Shown here piece after piece: positions 1,976 through 38,600 of a stretch of 64,000 nucleotides of DNA (position 1 is the first letter of the stretch; every line of letters starts with the position of its first letter). Both the position numbers and the translations under genes were made by a program. The stretch lies in the NCBI GenBank assembly GCA_903813345.2, contig CAIIXF020000008.1, positions 28,398,005 through 28,462,004 of the forward strand. Reading direction: 5' to 3'. The notes below the pieces were generated by a model that did no database searches, was not told the DNA's origin, and worked only from the letters and a program-made list of their open reading frames with translations. This DNA is from Owenia fusiformis (Eukaryota; Annelida; Polychaeta; Sabellida; Oweniidae).

Positions 1976-3140
1976 GGGTCGTTCGAAAAGTCTTGCACGA
2001 GAGATTTTATTATTTTTATGTGAAATTTCATACAGATATAGTATTACCCTTCTTACAAGCTTATTTGAAATTTCAGAACCATAAACAACATACTTCCTGA
2101 GATACATTGACTTAAAAATTTGAACCAATGGGCCCATGGTCCATACACTCCCCTCCATAAGTTTGGCAACCTTTTTTCCCCCATTGAACTACGTGTTAAA
2201 GCCTCTTTACCTTTGAATTTTTATTTACTTAACCTGCGATGAAAATACTTATACTATTAATGGAAACGTAATTTGACTTTAATTCCAATACCTCCAAATT
2301 TTCTCAATTTTTTTCCTCAATTACAGTAGGTCGAAAATTGATGATGAATTTGATGAATTTTTGAAAATCGACATTCCCATGTTAACCAATGGGAAATGGT
2401 AGGTTTGCCGCAAGTCATATGACAGAATATCCATCCATCCGAATCCTTGCAAAAAATACGAGTTAGGCAGGTAATTGAATTTGCTAACTTTATTTAACGA
2501 AAAATTGATATGTTTCTTCAGGTTCAACAAAGTTATAGGTCTTTAAAGTCAAAATTGTTTTTCAAAAAACCTCTCCCATTGAAATAATAACACAGGAGGC
2601 GAAAAATAATTTTCAAAAATGACTTTGAAGTGCTGTTACTTTAATATTCATCAAATAAACTAAACACTTAGTGTTCAAAAAAGTTAGACAATTCAATTTT
2701 CTATATAAAAATATTTTTTGCTGAATCTTTTACTGAAAAGATATCCTGATTTCTGATTTGCCCCGAACCCTCCATTTCCCATTGGATTACATGGGAATGA
2801 CGATTTTCAAAAATTCATCAAATTTATCATCAATTTTCGTCCTATTGTAATAGAGGAAAAAAATTGAGAAAATTTGGAGGTATTGGAAATAAAATAAAAT
2901 TACGTTTTCATCAATATTATAAGTTATTTCATCGTCGGTTAAGTAAATAAAAATTCAAACGTAAAGAGGCTTTAACACATAGTTCAATGGGGAAAAAAGG
3001 TTGCCAAACTTATGGAGGGGAGTGTATATGATGACATCATCAAATTGAATTGATTTTGTGAATGCCTTGATAGGCTGAAATGATTCTGCCAATCTTTGTT
3101 CTTTCAGCTGTTAATCAGGTTATGTTACTTAAAGAATATA
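1976..3140 (+). mobile_element. Mariner-like terminal segment, split by a nested element
   Basis: AGGGTCGTTCGAAAAGTC near 1976 resembles a mariner inverted-repeat end. The sequence up to 2143 and again from 3027 aligns with a second locus at 13831-14140: both contain a GATACATTGRCTTAAAAATT block, then GGTCC, then GACATCAT and GATTTTGT/AATTTTGT. At 13831 these blocks are continuous; here they are separated by the 2146-3024 element. It also interrupts the third copy of the 165-bp repeat. No transposase is left and the right terminus is not clear. Confidence 0.6.
2146..3024. mobile_element. Foldback Tc1/mariner-like non-autonomous element, TA-flanked
   Basis: The left end CACTCCCCTCCATAAGTTTG is matched by its inverse at 3000-3024 (CAAACTTATGGAGGGGAGTG). 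TA lies at 2144-2145 and 3025-3026, the target duplication typical of Tc1/mariner insertion. The arms extend about 260 bp inward (2146-2400 against 2770-3024), including an inverted CCCATTGGTTAACATGGGAA-type block. No transposase ORF. Smaller relatives share the terminus at 57363-57557. Confidence 0.8.
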
Positions 3141-4038
3141 TATGGAAATACAATGTATACATATTCTATATAGTTTGTTCTGTAATGTGTGTTGTATTTT
3201 CCACTCATTGGTAAAAATGCCATATCCATGCATGCAAATGGTGTGTATTGAATGGTTAACTGGCTTGAACTGATTCTCAATGATTTTGTGACTGGCAAAG
3301 GGCATCAGTTTTGGCATTTGTAACAAATTATGACACACTTTTGCAATCATAACCAGGCTTGACATTTCACATAAAATGCCTCAGTGAATGCTTTTCTTCA
3401 TTCTTTCAAGTTAGAAACGATTCAGATGTCTGCATCAAGAAATCTAACTGAAAATTTAACAACTTGAGATATTTGAAAAAAATTGATGGAGGTTCAACTA
3501 ACATAACAAAGGAAATATATATTTTCACAATTAGATTTAGGAAAGGATGCCAGTATAAGAGTTTAATTTGGTATGAGTGATGCAACTCATGTACTTAATA
3601 ACCCTTATTCATTTAGATGACCCGCATCATTGCATAAAGGAAAAATGTCACAAAATTGTACCAAGACACGGAATAATTCTGTGAGAGATGAAGTAGTCAT
3701 ACTTGAAATTTAGTCATCTGACAGACAATACGATTACATTTGAAAGTTTCACTATGTAACTCTACAGTAATTAAGCTGTATATCTGAACACCTCTCAATG
3801 TGAACACTTTTTCTTGGTCCAAAATTTATTTTTTCTCATTAATTTACATGCTTATAAAACCTTGTAATATGAACACTTTTGGCTGGTCCCAGAGGCATTA
3901 GGAATCAACAGTTTTCAAGTACTGAGTTTTTGAGTAAAACTTGTTTTAGTACACCCACCCATATTTATCAATGTTGTAGGAAGACAAAATTGGAATAACT
4001 CTGTGAGTGATGAGGGAATATTTTTGATATTGAAAAAC
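3027..4038. other. No gene seen; remainder of interrupted repeat copy
   Basis: The continuation of the mariner-like segment runs to about 3140 and the resumed 165-bp repeat copy lies at 3530-3650. The rest is AT-rich sequence without recognisable exons. Confidence 0.45.
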
Positions 4039-4598
4039 CAGACAGACAATGCAATCATTCTTTATTTACTTTTAGAGCGAAGCTAATTTTAGTACTAATC
4101 AGTGGCAATCACCCATTTTCCATGGAAAATACCAAACAGACAATGCCATAATCCTTTATTAACATATAGAGAGAAGCTAATTTTAGTACTTATCAGTGGC
4201 AATTACCCATTTTCCATGTAAAATACCAAACAGACAATGCAATCATTCTTTATTTACTTTTAGAGACAAACTAATTTTAGTACTAATCAGTGGCAATCAC
4301 CCATTTTCCATGTAAAATACCAGACAGACAATGCCATAATCCTTTATTAACATATAGAGAGAAGCTAATTTTAGTACTAATCAGTGGCAATCACCCATTT
4401 TCCATGTAAAAATACCAGACAGACAATGCCATAATCCTTTATTAACATATAGAGAGAAGCTAATTTTAGTACTAATCAGTGGCAATCACCCATTTTCCAT
4501 GTAAAGTACCAGACAGACAGTGCAATCATCCTTTATTTACTTTTAGAGAGAAGCTAATTTTAGTACTAATCAGTGGCAATCACCCATTTTCCATGTTT
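4039..4598. repeat. Six-copy 94-bp tandem repeat (minisatellite)
   Basis: Copies begin at about 4039, 4132, 4226, 4320, 4415 and 4509 with CCARACAGACARTGC (period 93-95). Each contains GCTAATTTTAGTACT, CAGTGGCAATCACCCATTTT and CCATGTAAAATACC. Two subtypes exist: A has GCAATCATTCTTTATTTACT, B has GCCATAATCCTTTATTAACA. The order is A-B-A-B-B-A, suggesting amplification of an A-B dimer. No open frame spans it. Confidence 0.9.
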
Positions 4599-8880: not shown

Positions 8881-9540
8881 TGGCATCCTCTGATCACAGG
8901 GCTCCAAAATCCAGAATATGTTGTTTCTTTTTACCCCCTGCTATCACGCGGTACTAACTTGACCATTAATTTTTGACCTACCAGATGTTTGAAAATCAAG
9001 GATTGCGAGTCTCATACCGCACCGTTTTTTTTCTTCAAACTTGTTCCATTCAAAGCATAACAAAAATGCCTTTCTGTTGGTATATTATTCTGCTATACAG
9101 AGTCCCTACTTTCAGCGGCATTTGGGTCCCCAGCTGTGAGAAGGGCTCTCACAACTGGGGACCAAAACGCTGCTAAAACGAGGGACTCTTTACAATAAAG
9201 CAATGTACCAACAGAAAGGCAATTTTGTTTTGCTTTGAATGGAACTAGTTTGAAGGAAAATGGTGCAGTATGAGACTCGCAGTCCTTGATTTTCAAACAC
9301 CTGGTAGGTCAAAAATTCAAATTAACGGTCGAAGTTACTGCGTGGCTATAAGCAGTTAGCATTTCCTCGACTAAGAACTCACAATTTGATTTGCTGTCAC
9401 AACACTGCGACGGCAATCAAGTATATGTCATCGGTGCATAATTAGATCACATGACTCAGTTTAATCAAGCCCTTCCAAATTGGTTATAGCAGGGGGAAGA
9501 AGTAGGTACGGATTCTGGACACCTGCTTAGGAGGATGGGG
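8881..9540. mobile_element. Large imperfect palindrome (foldback transposon)
   Basis: The core arms 8975-9145 and 9150-9315 are near-perfect inverses: GACCTACCAGATGTTTGAAA against TTTCAAACACCTGGTAGGTC, and TTTGGGTCCCCAGCTGTGAG against CTCACAACTGGGGACCAAAA at the centre. Outer blocks also pair (CCCCCTGCTAT near 8936 with ATAGCAGGGGG near 9487), but about 130 bp at 9350-9480 has no partner, so the right arm carries an insertion or the left a deletion. The opposing ORFs of 67 codons are by-products of the palindrome, not genes. Confidence 0.8.
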
Positions 9541-15834: not shown

Positions 15835-16458
15835 AGTGAAGAATTTAGGACGGAAAATCCAAAATGGCCACCTTAAAATTTACTCAGAATGCCCAAAAAC
15901 TAATCAGTTCTTAACTTTGATACGTAGAAACATCCCTGAAAATTTCAGATGAATCCATCAAATGGTTTGGCTGGAAACCTGTAGACAAGTCTTGAAAGTG
16001 AAGATTTTAGGACGGAAAATCCCAAAAAACTAATCAGTTCTTAACTTTGATACGTAGAAACATCCCTGAAAATTTCAGATGATTCCGTCAAATGGTTTGG
16101 CTGGAAACCTGTAGACAAGTCTTGAAAGTGAAGATTTTAGGACGGAAAATCCAAAATGGCCACCTTAAAATTTACCCAGAATGCCCAAAAACTAATCAGT
16201 TCTTAACTTTGATACGTTGAAACATTCCTGAAAATTTCAGATGAATCCGTCAAATGGTTTGGCTGGAAACCTGTAGACAAGTCTTGAAAGTGAAGATTTT
16301 AGGACGGAAAATCCAAAATGGCCACCTTAAAATTTACCCAGAATGCCCAAAAACTAATCAGTTCTTAACTTTGATACGTAGAAACATTCCTGAAAATTTC
16401 AGATGAATCTGTCAAATGGTTTGGCTGGAAACCTGTAGACAAGCTGAAAAGTGAGACG
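15835..16458. repeat. Four tandem copies of a 162-bp repeat, one with a 32-bp deletion
   Basis: Copies start AGTGAAGA(A/T)TTTAGGACGG at 15835, 15997, 16127 and 16289 (spacings 162, 130, 162). Each holds ACTAATCAGTTCTTAACTTT, GATACGTAGAAACAT and GGTTTGGCTGGAAACCTGTA. Copy 2 lacks the AATGGCCACCTTAAAATTTA segment. The array ends in a C-rich tract (CGCCCCCCGCCCGCC). A diverged single copy is at about 28170-28340. Confidence 0.9.
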
Positions 16459-23600: not shown

Positions 23601-26600
23601 TTGCATAATCAATTACCAAGCTAGTATAATCTTGAAAAAATCAATCAAACAAACAATCGATCAATGTGTCGTTTATCCTTTAAATTATATTGGATGGACT
23701 CGATGCTGTATTTATTTCTAATTATATGTTATTTTCGTGTACATGTACACGCTATATCCTAAGGGATGAGGAATGATTCTGAAGATTTATTGCAGAAATC
23801 TGGTGTGCTATTAAAAAGTATTTTCGCTGCACTATTTGTTTACTACAACATCTTCTGTATGGTTTTTTTTATATTCTTTTTCAGTCCCCTCCTGTTAGAT
23901 AGGCCACAAAATTAAATTTGAAAATCGTAGAATCGAGGGAGATGTTAAGATTCTAGTTAAATTCTGTAAACCCTCTTAACAGTCATTTGGAAGGATCAAG
24001 ACAAAGGGGCAAGATTTGTAAACCAGCCAATTGCAAACTCCCTTCTGATTGAACCTCTATAATCTTCAAAGTTCAATTTTTCAAAATCTCAGTTTGAGTT
24101 CAGCATGGTTTCTATTTGAAGGTCAAAGATCAAGGTCAACATCTAGATAATGCTGAGTCTTGAATCTTACACCTTAAAACCTTTGCTCATCATCATTCCA
24201 TATTTGATAATTAGTTAATCTTATGAGGTATTGCAAAATCAAACTGCAATGTCAAACTATCAAACTGCAATATCAAACTGCTTGTTAGATGGACAATTGA
24301 TGAATCATTTTTGTATAATTTTATTTATTAAAATTGCACCTGCCATTTTCTAATTATGAATGTGGTTTTACTTTAAAGGGCCCACCTACCAATTTTCTTT
24401 ACCACAATGTAAGCCAGTATGGGTCATTATTATCAGTTTGAATGCTAAATTTGCCCTTTGTTTCAGTGTTTAAGGAAGTCCATCCAATATAAATAAACGA
24501 TCATATAGGCCTTTTAATAAATGTTGCCACATTTTGTAACACTTAAGACACCAAGATATATTGGCCAGATTGAGGTGTTTGTATCAATAATAGAAACTTT
24601 TCAAAATAAGTAATAATTAAGTTAATCCTATACATCTACATGCATTTCGTTTAGAAACAGTGCTGACTACTGCCTATGGCATCAATATATTATAATTATT
24701 TTGTATTTTGAGCATGACTTAATATATCTTATATGCAGGAATCCATAGACCTTTGATATAAAGACATATGAAACATATTATATGTTTCTATTTCAGTAAA
24801 TCAAAGTATTCATTTATTTTTTGAGCATACACTGACACTTTAAACATTTTATGCCCAAATAAGCAGCATGCTTTTGTGTATCTTATAAGCTGGTCAATAT
24901 ATCCTGGTTTCTCTTATGGACAAAATATAGCAGGGCTTATGCCTTTGTCACATTTGCTCCGATTTTCACTACAGCGTCCGGCCGATTGAGTATTTTGTTC
25001 AAAATTGAATACAATATTGAACAAAACACTCAATCGGCCGGGCGCCAGCCAATGGATCGGAGCATATGTGACCAAGGCATTAGCAGGGTGTTTTTGGTGT
25101 GTTTGGGTTTTATTCAGATGTAAAACTCTGAATATTATTAATGTTATACCATATTGACACTTTAGCTGTTACTTTGAAGAATTGAAAAAAAGTCCATACA
25201 TACCAGGCCCATGGGTTCGAGCGAACCCCCCCCCCCCCCCCTGGCCAAAAAATCTTTCAAAATCATGCAGTTTTTCACCATTCTGAGCACTTGTAAATGA
25301 TTTTGGACATTTTTGGACCAAAATTGTCACAAGAGAACCCCCTTGGAATTTTTCAAAAAGTGAACCCCCCTTGGCAAATCCTGGCTATGGGCCTGCATCC
25401 CCAAGCTTTATTATGCTGGCCACAGGAAGGAATGAAAATGAATTCTTAATTATGGGTCAATTCAATTTCACTAATGTGCCGGTTGTTCACATATGCAGAT
25501 GGTTTGAAATATATGTTTTTGTCAGATATTTATTAAGAATAATCATTTCAAGGATATTTTTGTGCATCTTTATTTTTTGTGTTTTTTGGTGTGATTGGGT
25601 TTTATTCAGATGTAAAACTCTGAATATTATTAATGTTATACCATATTGACACTTTAATTGTTCCTTAAATTGAAAATTGAAAAAAGAACATACATCCCAG
25701 GCCCATAGCTAGGGGGTTCGATGGGTTTGAACCCCCCCCCCACCCCTGGACAAAAAATCTTTCATAATCATGCAGTTTTCACCATTCTGAGCAGTTTTAA
25801 GTGATTTTGGCCATTTTTTGACCAAAATTGTCACAAGAGAACCCCCCTGGAATTTTTCAAAAAGTGAACCCCCTTGGCAAATCCTGGCTATGGGCCTGCA
25901 TCCCCAAGCTTTATTATGCTGGCCACAGGAAGGAATGAAAATGAATGCTTAATTTGAGGTCAATTCAATTACACAAATGTGCAGGTTGTTCACATATGCA
26001 GATGGTTTGAAAGATATGTTTTTGTCAGATATTTATTAAGAATAATCCTTAATTCAAGGATATTTCTGTGCATCTTTATTTTGCCCGAAAATGTTGGTCA
26101 ATTGAATATATTTACAGCATAATAAAGAGGAGGTACCTGATAAAACACTAGAACAAATGCAGACAGCTTTGGAGAACAGTTTTCAATTGATGTTCATTTG
26201 GCTGCATTAGTACATCTCAATTGTTAGATTAAGGATTTGAATATGAGTTCTGTTTTCCAGTGATTTTTTATTTTAATCAAAATTTAAGCATAATCAGATG
26301 CATATCGATTTAGAGTCATTATCATTATCTAATTCATGAATACGTTTTAAATAATGGGTATGTGGACTTTTGATGTCAAGACCTCGTTTTTACTCGCTTG
26401 TTGCTACATACATATATAAATAGATGGCAGTGGTTGTGTTCGTAGGGCTATATACCAGCTTTTGCAATGGAAACTAGGCGATTGTGTTGACACAAAGGTT
26501 GTTATATAATTATGATCCTTAAAAGAATAGATGGCAGTAAATGTGTTCGTAGGGCTAAATACCAGCTTTTGCAATGGAAACTAGGTGATTGTGTTGACAC

Positions 26601-29600
26601 AAAGGTTGTTATATAATTATGATCCTTAAAAGAATACATCAACATTTAAAGATTTTTTAACATTGCATCAATTGGGATATAGCCCTAATTTTTTCGGAAA
26701 AGATAAAAATCTTGGCAAACTGAAAAATATAACTGTACCTCATTAGTAGTTCATGTCATGGAAAAATATGGACAAAATTAAAATATGTCATCAGATAAAT
26801 GAAAATGTCTTTGGTTGATGAATATGCAAATCTTTTAAAACCTCGAAACATAAGAATTCAGGAAAATTTCAAATTAAATAGCAAAACTCTACTTGGAAAC
26901 AGTACAATTGGAATATCATCTGTTATATGTTAAGCCCTATCGTGAGTTCCAATTCTGTTATAATATAATATTATGCTCAGCTAGATTTCCAGGTGAAAAT
27001 GATAGATAGACCAGAGTATAAGATTTTACTATGTATCATATGTTTTGGATGCATTACCCTTATGATGTAACAATAATAACATTCTACCTGCCATATGCAT
27101 GATAAATGAGTGGATGTATGTTCAAGTAAATTAATGTAAACACAGCAATAGTACACCTGTATGACACCTGTGTAGAATGAGATATAGCTAATGGCCTAGT
27201 CACATAGCCTGGCCGATGAGGTTACGATGAGCCAGCGATGCAATTTTCACCGAACTCGGCCGAACACCGGCTGGACACCGGCTGGACATCAGTGGCGTTT
27301 GTGCTTAAAACCGCATCGGTGGTAGCTCGGTGAAATTTTAACTTCGGAGTTAAATTTCACCGGGCTCTCACCGAGCTCCCTCATCATGTCATCGCAGCCC
27401 CATCGTAACCACATCGGGAAACACGTCGGCCGGTGCACGGCCGAGTATCGGCCGGTGTCCCGTGCATCTGAGACAACCAGAGGACGAGGTTTTTTAACGG
27501 ACAGCGGCCGAGCTCCGACCGAGCTCCGGCCGATGTGGGACAGAGCATCGGCCGGTCACTGTTCAAAGCCCGTTAACAACCCGGCTGGCGATCGCACGGT
27601 GTCCTGTTACCTGCTCGGGTACCGGCCGTATTCCTTCCGATGTCCGGCCGACCTCCGGCCAGTAGTTGCTGCCACATCGGCAGAAAAAAACTACCATTTT
27701 GAGACTGACTCCGTACGGTCACCGGCCGGTGTTCGGTCGGTCGCCTGAAGATGTCCGTACGGAGTCCGTTCACGTCACCGAGCTCTGCTTCCGATGAGGA
27801 GAGCTCGGTGGCACCAAAAAAATCCACCAAGCTCTACCGATGCCAGACATCGGCCGGGCTATGTGACTAGGCCATAAACAAACACACACAGTGACAAACA
27901 TTGCACTTTAAAGAGCAAAAATGGCCAACAAATATAATCCATTAACCCAGCAATGCCCAAAACCTAAACAGATCTTTGTGCTATAGTCTGCTTTTGTATC
28001 CATAAAAAGTTGAAGCTGAATGCTGGAGAAGCTATTTTCCTGGAATTCTGATGACAAGATTTAAGTGGCGCCAGCCGAACCATACAAACGCACTCAGCTC
28101 AGGATGACGACAATATAGCAGTTTAACAAAGTGAGATAAAAATCAAAAAGAAAACAGTTCTAAATGATTGCAGACGATATTTTAGGATTGATAATCCAAA
28201 ACAGCTGCCTTGAAATTAACCCAGCAAGTCTAAAATATAACAAGTTCTTAATTTTTATAGATAGAAACACCATGGAAATTTCAAACAATCCGGGATTCCT
28301 CAAATCGGGTGCCTGGAAATTAACATAGACAAGATTCTTCTATTCATTTAAATGGTGTTTGTTTGCGAACCAGAGACAGATCAAGTATCACAGCATGGAA
28401 TTAATAACAATAATCATATATTCAATACTTTTATATATGAAATATTGTTCGCGATTACGAATTTTTGATATATTTATATATTTTCTTCAGGTTAACTGAA
28501 TCAAAATTTTATTTACAATTATGACATCACAATCCATGTAATCTTTAACACTTTTTAAACATAATATATCTTAAAATAGAAATAAAATTTAAATATATAT
28601 AATAAACAAATAATAGTTAAATCACCTACCACGAAGAAAACATTCTGGGGTTAGAGAGAAATCATCAACAGCAATATCTCCAAGGTAACGATAACCTTTT
28701 GTGGCTATAAATCTCAGGGAATACCTATAACAAGAGAAACAAAATAATAAATAGAAAACAGGAGTTATTGCCTGGCCACACAAACAAACTAACAGACAAT
28801 GGATGGATGAACAAACAAACAGACAGCTTCTCTATATCCCTACGAACTTTGTTCAGTGATAATAATTAGCTGATTTTGTAAAATCTCCATAGCATTAAAT
28901 AATATTTTTTGTGAGAGAATGTTTAATAGCTCATTTTGAGTGTAATTGTAAATGATGTTAAAATAGGTTGTGAAAATGATCTTTTTCAGTGTTTAAAATC
29001 TTTGGCAAATATTGACATTACTATGTTGCAGTTTCTAGCAGTTGCAGGCAAAACTGGCAATTTTCAAGCCATTAAATATTCACTCAAACTAAAATGGACA
29101 CAAAATACTGAAGCACCGAAGACTTCGACACAATTTTGTTGTATCAGTTTTTTCTACATATAGCATAACTGCCATCTTTCTTGACAAAAGAAGCAACTGA
29201 TTGGTTCAAAGTAAGTGTGATGCATCTTTGAGAATGCTCATTCAAATAGATGGCATTGTGAGATGCTACTCGACATACAGATTGGACTTAAAATATTGGA
29301 ACATATTTGATAAAGTTGCAAAGATCAAGCCAGAATGCATGTAAACAATGTAATAGTTTTTATTTTAGATTGATGCTAATAATGCATGCTCATAAGATCA
29401 TTTATTCTAAAAATCTATAAGTTTCTAAAGTCAAACAGTACACATTTTTAATTTCTTTACCTTTCTGTAAGTTTTGGAAGTGGTATGGACTCACGGCGCC
29501 ACCTATCCTCATTTTTGTGACTTTTCTCCATTATCACCTTGGGTATGTTAAATTGCTTTGAATTTACAACAAGCTCAAGTGTCTGTGTATGAGGCCCAAA

Positions 29601-32600
29601 CATGTGGTAGTAGAACTGCACCTGAAATTCAAAGTTTTCCTTATGGTTCTGTCGTTGTACCAAGGGGAGTAAGTCAAACCCCCCCACCCTCCCCCAGATA
29701 TAGTATATGGAATATAAGAGTGAGGGTTGACTTACTCCCCATGTCTTGTACCAAAGTAGAATATATTAAGGAAAGAAAGTAGATGATATTTATATGTATA
29801 GTCCGTATACTAATTGATAGATGTCACCTAAAGATATTTTCTCGAACTAAAAATGTGATTTTTGCTCTCGTATCAAAGGTCTTATTGACCTGTTTCGTTA
29901 TATGGAGTAACACCAAGTAATTCTCAAGTAATTAATCTGAGGTGGATTTCGCCATTATATACCTGAATTGAACAGTACAAGTATTCAAAGTCCACTCAAA
30001 GTGCATTGCAGTCTTTCTGTTTTACAATTGCACTCAGGAGAAGGGAATTTCCCAGAATTCTTATTTGATCAAGAAGTTCATCTTTAGATGGAGATGGTCC
30101 ATCTCTGAATTCTGGGCTATTCCCAACTCTTATTCTGCTCTTTGCCTCATTTAAAGGAATATTCCTTGCCAAACCATCTCTCTCCTCATATGGTAGCTAT
30201 AACCATATATATGCTTGCCATGTTTAGCAAAACACGCAAAAATGTTTTGATATGGTCAAATTTGATCACTTAGAAATGTGATGCTCAATTCCAGTAAGCT
30301 GCCATCTTTTAAAATTTCACACAGGAAGTGATGTCATCGACTCTCAACTTTGCATATAGCATTAGGTGAGGAGCTATTAAGAATTACAAAACCAGCTAAA
30401 TATTCTTTTTCAACTTTGTATCTTATTTAATCCTTCTGAAAATCTCTTCTTTTATTCTAAGTTGACAAGCCCTGAAAATATTTTTGCACAGAAAGTAATG
30501 ATCACTTGTCTAGAAGTGATTTTGTGCTACTTTTCTATACTGTTATGGGCAAGGTTATAGAAGTTGAGAGTTGATGACATCACTTCTTGCAAGAAATCTT
30601 AAAAGATGGCAGCTCACTGGAAATAAGCACTAGATTTTTATTGATCAATATTGACCATATTAAAACTTTTTCCCATGTTTTGCTAAATATGGAAACTATA
30701 TATATGATTATAGCTACCATATCAAGAGAGAAAGGGTCTGGCAAGGAATATTCCTTTAAGTGCATTAGTGTCTTGCTATTTTACCATTGCACTCAGGAGG
30801 AGGGGATTTCCAAGAATTCATAGATGAACATACAGTATCTCCATGTAAAGAACCTGAGGAAGTTCATCTTTAAATGGAGATAGTCCAACACTGAATTCTG
30901 GGTATTCTACTCCTTGCTTACCCTACATGTGTTGTAGTATGGGGAATTCTGGTCATATACAATCTGAGGTGGAGGGTCAAATGTTTCACTTTCAACAACC
31001 TTTCCCTCGAGCATTTGCTGTTCAGTGGAGGCATCAAAGTGCAGAAAATATCCTGGAACAGACAAAACAAATAAACCAAAATAACCAAAAACAACACTGT
31101 AAGTGGCTTAAGCTAGTCAATCAATTTGTCTGTCGAGCATTTAGACTAATTTTGAAGGTAAATTTTGAAATACACAGTCCTTTAAGTTTTTTGATAAAAT
31201 GGAAAATCACATAATTACATTTCAAAACATTCATCTTATGATTTAGTTTTTAAATATATTATTCTCTTTTTTGTCAAAATGAATTCAATGCTAGAAAAAT
31301 GGATTGAAATGCTTCTCTTGATGAATAATGTTTTGAGCAATATAACAATATAAAAAAATGTCACTTGATAAAAATAATAATGGACTACCCAACTTGCTAA
31401 TTGATATTATTATGTAATATTAAATAAATCAATTACATGTACACCGACACAAATTGTATTTGTTTTGTCCAATTAGCAACTGAGCAGATCAAGGGAAGAG
31501 ACACAAATATTTTTTATGCATCATAAAAGTCTTTGTGGGACGACTGTATCGTTGCTTTCTTACATTCATAAATATTAAGTAGGTTGAAATGATGGTCACG
31601 TGGTTGTCTGCTGTCAAAGACCCAGGCACTGGTCAACGTGGGGCAGTTGTGTATGTATGTATAATTTATTTACCTCTTAAATAAAAGAGAGTTACATTCA
31701 TATTAACATGTAGAGAAAATTAAATAAAATTATAAAACATATTTGTGTTACTTAATGTAAGGTAAAGAGGATAACTAACTTTTATCCACAAGAAATTGCC
31801 TATGCCTGTGTAACTCGTACACATGCATAGCTATGAGTAACAGAGTCTCCTTATCATCATTGTATACAGTTCCTAGAATCACTTTAAGAATATAATCGTC
31901 GTTCATTACATTCAGATTACCTCTCGCTAAATTGAGTAAGGGTTTTCTAACATCAGTAAAAGCTGGACAAGTAATCAAGAAATGCTTAACACTTTCTCTT
32001 TCGTTAAGATCACAAAATATACAGATTTCTGATAAAGTTGTGTCACTCTCACGGCGTCTACTGTTAAAATATGTCGAGGTTAATAATTTGACCATCATTT
32101 TACAGAGGTATAATACATGTGGGTTTTCTTTTGCGATCACCCACCATACATTCGGTTTTAGGATAGACAACGATCCTGTCACCACGTTGAGATTTTTATA
32201 CATTAATGATGATAAAACAGTACTATAATTGTGAAAACTCTTGACACGTCCGTAGACTACAGTTCTAAATTCTTGTTTTGAAGGGATTTCTGCATTAAAA
32301 ATCATGTTCTTAACATAGTCTATGAGGTTGTACTGCACAACAGTATCCCACATTTGAGATAATGGAGATTTCAGACCTTGAGATGGTGATTTTAAATACA
32401 TCATCCGTATTAACCTTTCTAAACATATGACCTTATAAATACAGCTTACAGGTAGCCTTAACAACATATACAGAAACATCAATCTATCACAGTCAATTTT
32501 TGCTTTAACAGACATCCATCCAAGCAGACTAGTGGCGACAGGGTCTGGCGTATTCTTTGGTAATGTCTGAATGCGTTTTCCGACCTCTTTGTGCAGACCT

Positions 32601-35600
32601 TCCATTAGATTAATGTCATTGTTAGTGTAAGGTATTACTGCACAACCATAAGTCAGAGTTGGATAGGAGAATGACCAGTACAGCTTTGATCCAAGCAAGG
32701 GATGTATACCACCGCACCCATTGCCTAGACCTAAGAGTGAACAAAATTTTCTTCTTGCACAAGATATTGCAGTTTTAACATGTACATTTGTACTACCCAG
32801 TGGTATTCCAACATGCTGAGCAGAGTTAACAATTTTAAGCGAATTGTTACCAAGTTTAAAATCTTGAGCAGCCCTTTTCCCTGGGCCAAAATACATGATG
32901 ACACATTTGTCTGGGTGGAATTCAAATCTCCAGCGAAGACTGTAATCATAAGCTAATTGAAGTAAAATATTCATTTGGTGATGACCAGTAGTAATAAGAG
33001 CAAGATCATCTGCGTAAGCCGGGCAACCTACAGGGTGATCCCCAATTTTAGCAACTGCCTGACTGTTAACCAGCTCGTGTAATAAATCAGCCAAGTAAAA
33101 CTGATACAAGACCATACTACAAACCCCACCTTGGTGGACTCCCCGGTGGACATTGAAAGATTCTTGGTTTAAAATTCCACTTACAAAAACTTTACATTTG
33201 TATTTACAATAAGACTGGTACAAAATTCGCCACGCTAGACCATTTACACCGTTGTGATATAGCTTCCAGAACAGACCGTCAATCCAAGTACCGTCAAAGG
33301 CCTTCTTAATGTCCATTAACGCCAAAATGACGCCATCCTTAATATTATGGGCTATGGTTTCCTGTAGTAACAATGATGTTTGAAGAGATGAGCAATTTTC
33401 AATAGAGGCTCCCTGGAGCTGGGGAATTTTACTCCTAAGCCGAGGCAGCATTCTTAACAGAATAATATTGTCAAACAATTTTCTTAAAATACTCATGAGT
33501 GTTATTCCCCGATGATGATCCTTGTTGTGACAGTCTTTATTCCCAGATTTAAGTAATGGAATGAGAATGCCAGTGCAAAAATTTTCTGGGATGTACTCGC
33601 TGACCCGAATAACATTAAAAAGTGAGGTTAATAACAATGTCATACAGTCACCACCATATTTGATATGCTCAGCATTCAATCCATCATGCCCTGCAGCCTT
33701 ATTATTATTAAGTTTCATTACACAATCATTCACTTCTTTAACTGTAATCTCTGAGTCAAGAATACCATCATTATTTAATAGAGATTCCACTTTCATGTTT
33801 TTCACATCAGATTTAACAGTTTGTTCAAAATTTTGGTCAAAAATGTCCCTGTGATCATATGATGCTAGTTTGCTGAAATATGATTGCCAATCATTATTAA
33901 TATCAGTGGGATTAGTTAAAATATCACCAGAATCTGATCTGATAGACCCCGTTGACTTACTTGTACAATTTCTACTTTTATTCAAGAGGTACCAAAAAGT
34001 TCTTTGATCCATATCATTAGCATCGTAAATATCATTAAGCTGCTTCTGTTCATAGTTAACACGTGACTGATTAAATGCAGCTCGGAAGTTTTTCTTCGCT
34101 TCCTTGTAAGCTTTCCTGATAGGATCAGAAGAATCCCTTGGTCTCCCCGCTTTAGTCCATTTATGCCAGGCTGCTTTTTGTTTTTTACTAAGAACAGACA
34201 GATCATTGTTCCAAAAAGGCTTCTGATGCTTCATAAATTTTTTCAAAGGAATGGCATCATCAGCTCTACATTTTACAATTTCAATCAAACGTTCGATAAA
34301 ACTATCGATATCCTTACAATCAAGTTTGCTATTGTCTGACATACTCCTGATTAAAGGCTCCAAATCCGACTGCAAAGGGATTGTATACTTAACATTTACC
34401 TCATTGCGAGACACCCTGTACCATGAATACACCTTCTTGACACAGAGCGTAGAGCTTTTAACATGATTAATAGATGGCAGGTCTAACTTACTTTTAATCG
34501 CCAAATGGCCATGCATTGACGTATATGCGCTACACAAAACATTACAGCTTATTACACTCTCCAGCATAGATTCAGAAATCACAATATGGTCAATATACGA
34601 TTTATACCCAGTGGCTGATTCGTATGTATAATTAGGCCCTTGTGTTATGTTTTGCATATCGAGGGCAACTAACCCGTTACGCTGCATCATTTGAAACAGC
34701 AGTTGACCGTTATAACTATAATTAGTGGTACAACGCCGTGTACTACATAAATTGCCTAAATTGGCATTAAAATCACCAGTAATTACTATTTGAGCATCTA
34801 CATGACAACTTATCACATATTCTTCAAGTGTATTCAACACGTCTTCAAAATTGTCATTTTTACACCCAATCTGTGGCAAATATACAGAGAATATAAAAAT
34901 TGGCACATTTGCCTCAACCTTAATGCATGCAATCCTATCATTACAAAATTTATGTATCGGTGATATGGCATGTTTAATTGATCTACGCCACATAAGAGCA
35001 ACCCCACCATGGCCCCAAGTCAGACCGCATTGCATAGAATCAAGGTTTTTGCAGCTAATCGCAATGGAATCATATTCAGCATCAATAGCTTTTAATTTGT
35101 GCAAATTTGCTTCAAAAAGTCGGTGTTCCGAAACAGCGACAATATCACTTGAACTTAGAAGTTCTCTTAGATATAACTCAGATGAATTGAGGCCATTTAT
35201 ATTCCACTGTGAAATAACTACCATTACGACTAATACAAGTTGTGAAAGTGAAGAAAAGGTCATGATCAGGATTAGAAATTACGCGAGTTATACCTCGGTC
35301 TTAAGTCAGTGTCATTATATGAGTCACTCCTGACGACATCGCGTCGTGATCGTCGTACCCACTCTCTACATTTGATTGGGATTGGCCATAAGTCGATGCT
35401 TAAGGCCTTATCGACATGGTGTAAGGGCACAGTTATTTTACAACCCACTCTGTCACATGATATACGATTATGCACTACATGTATTTGTTTCACCCTTATT
35501 CCGTTGTCCAACGCATACCGTTTTACAGTTTCAATAGTATCATCGTCTTCTTCATCATTTGATTGATATATATTTTCCAAATATAAAGTCCTTACTTCCT

Positions 35601-38600
35601 CGTACTCGATGCCTCTTAACCGTTTCTTGGGAATTTCGTCACGCATAATTTTCTGTCTTGTGGGGACCGTGTTGACGTAATCCTTTTGTTTCGCTACTAA
35701 TTTCTGTCGCCGTAGTTGACTATTGCCAATCCAGGTCTGCCATTCCTTTCCAGGTTGATCGGAACCATTCCAAATTCCACTCTTAGGGGGAGGTCCGCGC
35801 CATACGCCAGTTGCCGTTGTGCCGTAATTAACCTGATATGACCCATCGTCCGAAAGCGTATTCAGACCAAGATTCGTTCTTGGGGGTCTCGGGGGCGTCG
35901 TCCTCTTTGGTATGGGAGGTGTCAGTATCTGGGGGTTATCAGGAATCAACGCGTCATGGCGTTCCGCAGGGGTTAACGTCCGTTTCGTGGACTCTAACTG
36001 GGTGTTCGCATCAGCATTAGCGGTGTCTGCGTTTGGGTTAGGTGCTGGATCATCTTTATCTAACTTCGGGTACCCATCACTGCCTGGGGCCAGATTTGGA
36101 GTTTGGGGGCGGTCAATAGGTATTCCAATGTTACTGTTTCTATTATTATTGTTTACATTATTTGACCGGTCAATAACTGGGACATTAGGGTCATTGGGTA
36201 TACTCAGATTACTGCAACTCACTCCCGACAAAACCGCAAGGCTGGATTTTGCGAAATTAGCCATAGCCTTCTGATTTTGCTTGATGGTCGAATTAGGATG
36301 TATTCTATCAGTCTATGCTAGCACATAGCTGGTCTCAGATATTTTAACTTGTGATCAGTAATATTATTTTCATTATAAGTAACTATTATCATTTTATTAT
36401 TATCAGTATATATTATTATATGGACTGTGTTATACTTATTATTGGAATTGTGGACTATTATATACATTTATTGTTGCCACCCATTCCCCTCCACCTCCCT
36501 TCAGATATGGACTACCCAACTTGCTAATTGATATTATTATGTAATATTAAATAAATCAATTACATGTACACCAACACAAATTGTATTTGTTTTGTCCAAT
36601 TAGCAACTGAGCAGACCAAGGGAAGAGACACAAATACTTATTATAACTGGAATTAGGAAAGAAGAGACAAGATATATACTATATACTATAACTTGGTGTG
36701 TAATATGTTTTGTGATTTTTGATATCCCACTACTCAATTCCTGGGGGGGTGTAAATTACTTAGCTTATTCCCTTTTGTGTTAATATTTTCATTTCTGATA
36801 TTGAGGGCTCCCTTTCCCCATGACTGGTTGAGGTCTTGTATTGCATTTTTGCTTTCATTACTTATTGATCACCCCTCATATATACATATGAATCATGAAA
36901 ACTTCACCAAAGTCTCTTATGGAACTGTACCTGTTTTATTTTTCATTGTGTGATCATTAGCTGGGCCAGTTAACCTGTCTTTTGGGTCATTGAGAAAGTG
37001 ATCTCCGTTACTTCTTGACCAGTTTGTTCCTTTTCGTCCAATGTTATGCCATCCACACCAATCTTTGTCAAATGTACATCGGGAATGGACTGGTAAATAA
37101 TCTTAAAATATACAAAGACAGTATTTACTATGAGGACTAGCTTTCATGATAACAATACAACTTTTAATTTTTCTGATATATGCCATGCTTTCCACATAAA
37201 ATAATGGCAATCTTATATAATATGACATGATACAATGGCGTAGTGTCATATACACATAAGATGCCAAAATTTAGAGAAAAGTTGATTTTTTTATAGATTT
37301 TTTTTAGATTATTAGTTACTAAAATCAATGTATTATATATACATGTATACGAGGGTTGTCCCATAAGTCCTGAACTAATTGTTATAAGAAGAAGAGTTTT
37401 TATTAATAAAGGCTGAATTGTAGCAAAAAAGTTATACATGTCAGAACTTGCATGGTGCAGGGTACCTTGGGCACATTTTTTTCTCCTAAAAAACGTCACA
37501 ATTAATATTAAGACAATATTTTCAAAGCAGTGACTCATCTTCAAAATTGTTGTATTATTGCAAGTGATACTGTGAAAATGAGTATTAAGACATCACACAA
37601 TAATATATCAAGATATCACCGCAACTGTAAATAAACTAAAATATTGTCTTAATTTTTAAGACGTTTTTAGGAGAAAAGAATGTGCCCCGGGTACCCTGCA
37701 CCATGCAAATTCAGACACCCATAGCTTATTTGTTACATAATATTTTAATTTGAAATTATTTACATTGATTACAAAATTCCTAAAGATAATACTGCTGAAA
37801 TATCAGCCTTTAATAATAAAACTCTTGGTCTTATAACAATGAGCGAATATGATACACCAGCATGCTAGCATGATCTCTTATTTTAAGAGTTGGAAAAATA
37901 AAAATATGTATACTTCCTAATTTCTTACCACAATTAGCCTCATCTTCTCCATATACACAGTCCATATTGATGTCACATACTCTGGAATGGTGTATACAAC
38001 CTGTTGTGTTACAATAAAACTCTTCTAGGCTACACATTTCATCTCTTGTGAGATCTGAAAACATAATAAGTTAAATTTAAAACTCACATGAAAATTTTTA
38101 CCTCATATATAGTGTTTTTACTCCTTCAAACTTACAAAAGTGAACAACAAATGTTCAAAGCTCATCCATGTGAAATATGAGGCCAAAAGAATAAAAATTG
38201 ATAATATGAGAGTAAAAATTTAAAGACTTTTTGAACAACCCTTGTATGTCTATGTTTGACATGTTTGACACTGTTCTTTTTATATTAGATTGTAGTTTGG
38301 AGCGCAGGCACTGGAACTGATAGTAAAACTGACCGAAACAAAAATCCCCTCCCCACTTTATGTGTACGATCTCTTTTTCTTTGGTGCTCAGAGATTGGGG
38401 TAGATTTTCATTTCAATCAATTCTACTATTTGTTTCAGAGCCTGTGGTTTGGAGCCTGTGTTTATGTTCCTCTCCCTAACTTTGTTTTTAATACTGTTGC
38501 TATTTTCCCTTTTGCAACTTGTGTTTCCATATTTCTGTGCTTCTGATATAATATTGTTTTTGAATGATGTGGTTTTGGTGGTTTTGGACCACATTATTTT

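Follow-up and report, generated by a model that had tools for sequence, protein, structure and literature searches.

LINEs with an APE-type endonuclease typically duplicate some 10–20 bp of their target on insertion (PMC6895275, PMC13295347), and among RTE elements short duplications are recorded for SR3 (10–12 bp) and HzRTE-1 (10 and 7 bp). Much longer ones are also on record, and those of L1 are reported to reach several hundred nucleotides (PMC1291365). In one account, 10% was the upper limit for L1 duplications of more than 100 bp among HeLa events, whereas they made up most events in NER-deficient cells (4 of 7 with XPA, 21 of 23 with XPC and 22 of 28 with XPD deficiency) and three of nine in complemented XPD cells; a distal, unrelated nick was proposed there as the source of the long duplications (PMC5223499). 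Full-length L1 insertions in HeLa cells are described with duplications of 10–17 bp, the very long ones accompanying 5′ truncation (PMC2912911). Among 25 insertions of the zebrafish L2 element ZfL2-2 into wild-type DT40 cells, one had a duplication of 1,228 bp (PMC2666801), and a 126-bp target duplication is cited for R9 of bdelloid rotifers (in PMC6895275). The completion of LINE integration, including second-strand cleavage, is described as poorly understood (PMC6895275).

The locus considered here is a LINE of the annelid Owenia fusiformis with a 130-bp direct repeat at each of its ends. It lies within a 64-kb stretch of DNA that was analysed as a whole (the window; 67% AT), and the coordinates of its features are collected in the table below.

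The element, its flanking repeats and the window

Features of the LINE and its flanking repeats (window coordinates; 5′ and 3′ refer to the sense of the element)
Feature	Coordinates	Strand	Observation
3′ copy of the 130-bp direct repeat	31380..31509	-	128/130 identical to 36507-36636, gap-free
A6 tail	31510..31515	-	adjoins the 3′ repeat copy directly; hexamer at 0.2% of window positions
3′ UTR, 265 nt	31510..31774	-	end reads TTTTATG-ATG-CATAAAAAA
LINE body, 4,997 bp	31510..36506	-	flanked by both repeats; two complete ORFs
ORF2, 1,162 aa	31775..35263	-	stop included; APE-type endonuclease, reverse transcriptase (RT) and C-terminal CxxC...HxxxxC segment, from Pfam and PDB sequence matches
YADD catalytic motif of the RT	33005..33016	-	sequence motif in ORF2
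SMHGH in place of the endonuclease S-D-H motif	34505..34519	-	Asp missing, in alignment with L002, L003, L005 and human L1
ORF1, 330 aa	35272..36264	-	stop included; without a family match above cut-off
5′ UTR, 242 nt	36265..36506	-	upstream of the ORF1 ATG; G-rich start
5′ copy of the 130-bp direct repeat	36507..36636	-	128/130 identical to 31380-31509

The two repeat copies align without gaps and differ at only two positions, both of them transitions (31446/36573, G/A; 31489/36616, T/C), and the similarity ends abruptly, with a mismatch at 31379/36506 on one side and at 31510/36637 on the other. A repeat finder reported 138 bp at 97% identity, a length in which a T-rich extension is included. 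The gap-free alignment bears out the earlier note, which had described direct repeats of 130 bp with two mismatches at both ends of the LINE; its view that the low divergence suggests a young insertion is also consistent with the data, two differences in 130 (95% Poisson range 0.2–5.6%) fitting a fairly young one. A blastn search of all 64 kb with the repeat found no third copy, the next-best matches being 19–26 bp long (E 0.007), and the same comparison returned a self-palindrome within the repeat. When the window was compared with itself (E up to 1e-5), the remaining pairs of more than 93% identity were tandem arrays, and the dispersed or inverted pairs did not exceed 92%. A chance origin of the pair is excluded.

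The window contains a variety of other repeats. Self-palindromic or inverted repeats of a fold-back or MITE-like kind, 70–92% alike, are present at 2143-3027, 8968-9317 and 37419-37737, and as inverted pairs at 30148-30350/30762-30561, 59795-60050/62581-62325 and 62878-63314/63895-63460. Tandem duplications lie at 4033-4596 (94-bp unit), 15895-16454 (130/162 bp), 25091-26082 (about 490 bp) and 26419-26636 (107 bp). Of the 94 other ORFs of the window (at least 70 aa), 10 were searched against Pfam, and the sole outcome was two weak matches that did not reach the cut-off.

Assignment of the element to the APE-type LINEs follows from the architecture of ORF2, in which an APE-like endonuclease lies N-terminal of the RT in a single frame, with the YADD motif and other conserved blocks; there is an A6 run beside the repeat, and no integrase was detected with Pfam (E up to 1). 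The Pfam matches above cut-off are Exo_endo_phos (residues 19–237, E 1.9e-11), Exo_endo_phos_2 and RVT_1 (residues 581–798, E 3e-18), and the PDB sequence matches are to human L1 ORF2p and R2. ORF1 has no significant match in either Pfam or PDB, and the structures predicted for ORF1 and for the endonuclease are of low confidence (mean pLDDT 35 and 29.5, respectively). Read in sense, the 5′ UTR opens with ATCTGAAGGGAGGTGGAGGGG and the 3′ UTR terminates with TTTTATGATGCATAAAAAA, its last bases forming a short inverted repeat that runs into A6; the structure of the 3′ UTR is otherwise ordinary (z -0.9; folding equally good in 38 of 200 shuffles). The element is apparently full-length or near full-length, the two complete ORFs and the 242-nt 5′ UTR being the basis of that description, which the earlier note had given without qualification.

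Departures from conserved residues and relatives of the element

The catalytic set of APE endonucleases consists of N, E, D-N, D and S-D-H, and in the last of these the element departs from it. Its endonuclease reads TSMHGH, the His being kept and the Asp gone, whereas human L1 and the distant relatives L002, L003 and L005 have SDH, as does L001 when inspected by eye; the catalytic set of ORF2 is thus incomplete. A second departure is in the RT, where the block at 33113-33133 (- strand) reads QGGVCSM in place of the SP seen in L1, in L002 and in two R2 proteins. The residues concerned take part in catalysis or hardly vary among APE endonucleases and RTs. Domain content and architecture still place the element in the APE-type class despite the missing Asp, the loss of which could be either a fault or decay of this single copy or a trait of its family. 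Both ORFs had been called intact, with endonuclease and YADD motifs: the frames are indeed open and the domains and YADD are present, but because the endonuclease is without the Asp of S-D-H, intactness is unproven.

Searches of viral contigs yielded no close relatives among the candidate stretches retrieved with ORF2 (3), the RT core (5) or the RT alignment (81), and exact probes of 32 and 35 bases from the repeat and from the 3′ end of the LINE had no match. In genome contigs none of 25 candidate stretches retrieved with the RT core was a relative, and the RT alignment gave 16 relatives among 164 stretches, all of them distant (22–34% identity) and all filed under prokaryote records. Follow-up genome searches covered 12 of these 16 loci (L007, L009, L010 and L012 were left out); 11 of the 12 genomes gave matches, which again were distant. 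Comparison of the window ORF1 with L001–L016 by tblastn (E up to 0.01) found nothing.

L002 is a LINE on the 3,808-bp contig JABXGY010000269.1, which is filed as an archaeal MAG, is presumably a eukaryotic contaminant and begins inside ORF1. It resembles the window element in having an ORF2 with APE and RT domains, 216 of 931 aligned positions being identical, and a pairwise alignment shows a shared LYL...LWP pattern at the end of ORF1, a weak likeness that tblastn at E up to 0.01 missed; it is, however, a distant relative. We note that L005 (590-4234) and L002 (461-3505) are LINEs with a long open ORF2 on contigs held under prokaryote records, one such record being a Sulfurimonas endosymbiont of Alviniconcha boucheti, and that within the reference collection these contigs resemble contaminating DNA of eukaryotic hosts.

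Origin of the 130-bp repeats

We favor, with a probability of roughly 0.84, the explanation that target-primed reverse transcription inserted an APE-type LINE here, at full or nearly full length, and that the target was thereby duplicated to give the 130-bp repeats. Both repeats end exactly at the ends of the LINE, and the repeat unit is not continued inward or outward (3, 4, 6 and 2 matches per 20 at the inner and outer sides), and a target-site duplication is therefore the best reading. Provided that an A-tail is what one expects of such an element, the A6 at its sense 3′ end, adjoining the 3′ repeat copy, supports this reading strongly; a T6 starts at 0.20% and an A6 ends at 0.23% of window positions. 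At the outer junctions of the whole block there is no perfect match of 1–15 bases, the best being 5 of 6 with an offset and one mismatch, and hence no short outer duplication was found that would make the 130 bp part of the element. The lack of a third copy in the window and the endonuclease and RT domains in open frames also favor this reading. The proposal that the target was duplicated over 130 bp on insertion, already made in the earlier note, consequently stands as the best explanation. The arguments are inferences from one locus, which itself counts against this explanation, as does the sequence at the first nick, CAAATA/CTTATT, which is unlike the L1 consensus TTTT/A. A recent copy made by its own endonuclease would not be expected to lack the S-D-H Asp, unless decay followed insertion or the family departs from the motif. 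In HeLa cells, moreover, the very long L1 duplications went with 5′ truncation, which makes their combination with full length the less expected one.

Of the other explanations, the one that survives best supposes that the 130 bp is the LINE's own 3′ end, the upstream copy being all that is left of another, severely 5′-truncated LINE that adjoins the full-length element in tandem. Tandem LINE copies exist and the 3′ ends of some LINEs form hairpins, as the 130 bp can, but the whole block is without the short duplication that such an arrangement calls for, its outer end has no A-rich tail, and the A6 would have to lie at the inner boundary by chance (0.2% of positions); we therefore consider this origin improbable. 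Less probable still is that a tandem 130-bp duplication existed first and that the LINE was inserted exactly at its junction. The window does contain several short tandem arrays, one of which has a 130-bp period (15895-16156) although its sequence is unrelated; however, insertion precisely at the junction and with no duplication of its own would be needed, since an ordinary short duplication there would leave extra unit sequence beside the LINE, where on the inner sides just 3 and 4 of 20 positions agree with the unit, and the outer sides hold no further copies. That the assembly retained two haplotype versions of the 130 bp on either side of the insertion is hardly credible, as a break would be needed precisely at both LINE ends, even though the 1.5% difference is of the order of the heterozygosity in many marine invertebrates.

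Under the preferred explanation of a target-site duplication, the anatomy of the locus can be read in the order of steps of the established target-primed reverse transcription model. The first nick would have been made on the + strand of the window after ...GACACAAATA, at 36636/36637, and the A6-ending RNA would have been reverse transcribed from the 3′ end thereby freed. Opening of the second strand would have followed at 31379/31380, at a distance of about 130 nt, and gap filling would then have copied the 130 nt on both sides, yielding two copies that have presumably since diverged at two of 130 bases.

As to why the two nicks would be so far apart, the likeliest answer is that second-strand opening, through a host nick or repair event some distance away, occasionally has this outcome, in line with the distal-nick proposal for long L1 duplications (PMC5223499); a trait peculiar to the family is less likely. 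It is unlikely that the family routinely leaves some 100 nt or more between the first nick and the opening of the second strand, as an APE-type counterpart of R9, whether through its S-M-H endonuclease or through a hairpin. One may speculate that an S-M-H endonuclease is poor at the second cut and leaves it to host enzymes, which would give long duplications if the trait were family-wide; the boldest mechanism would be a hairpin in the target that folds the two nicks close together.

The 130-bp repeat does contain a 10-bp perfect inverted repeat, TTGCTAATTG...CAATTAGCAA, and by minimum-free-energy prediction it folds as a long stem spanning 86–114 of the 130 nt, depending on strand and copy. 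An inverted repeat at least as long occurred in 2 of 300 shuffles and in 9 of 300 random windows, and 1 of 200 shuffles attained the hairpin energy of the repeat. Among 710 windows compared with the left copy, the only one used in these controls, 3 and 7 (one count per strand) equalled it in energy, span and stem together, but 59 and 87 did so when energy was considered alone; among 760 AT-matched windows, compared on the + strand, 28 reached its energy, which puts the share matching on energy at 4–12%. The hairpin is thus mildly unusual; it was chosen after the fact, and so we do not count it as evidence. Because the window holds many fold-back repeats, the duplicated target may be an old fold-back element. 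A complex junction, suggested by the likeness of the 5′ UTR to the target flank (ATACTTATTAT...TGGAATT), was rejected: 11 of 300 shuffles reached it, which is too weak for seven tests, and the three strongest of the seven UTR/flank comparisons were reached by 5, 9 and 11 of 300.

Comparison with known LINEs

In bivalves the reported mean lengths of LINEs include 4,937 bp for RTE-X, 5,204 bp for CR1-Zenon and 5,675 bp for Proto2 (PMC10294476), and the 5.0-kb element is nearest to the first two of these means, although length does not decide its clade. Membership of L1 proper was rejected, as ORF1 has no Transposase_22-type Pfam match (E up to 1) and the first nick does not follow the L1 consensus. 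If the family reliably made long duplications it would provide a natural test case for second-strand cleavage, and the locus names a candidate; as a single event, it adds a case in which a long duplication has well-defined bounds and the APE LINE between its copies is apparently full-length.

The element is like human L1 in combining an APE endonuclease with an RT, in its A-tail, in the use of target-primed reverse transcription that we propose for it, and in that a minority of L1 duplications in HeLa cells exceed 100 bp. It differs in that the sequences are distant (phmmer E 5.8e-22 over residues 122–759), and in that here the element between the long duplicates is a genomic copy, apparently full-length, whose tail is just A6. 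ZfL2-2 likewise shows a very long duplication, but as a single experimental event. The duplication of R9 is of nearly the same length (126 bp against 130 bp); R9, however, is an rDNA-specific element of the R2 group. R2-group elements carry a restriction-like endonuclease, and membership of that group is ruled out for the window element by its APE endonuclease, and Rfam gave no match in the window at the gathering threshold. The earlier note was thus right that APE-type LINEs usually make target duplications of less than about 20 bp, and its implication that 130 bp lies outside their range is not supported, given the L1 duplications of more than 100 bp and that of ZfL2-2. A duplication of 130 bp is unusual for an APE-type LINE, but it is precedented and falls within the range recorded for these elements.
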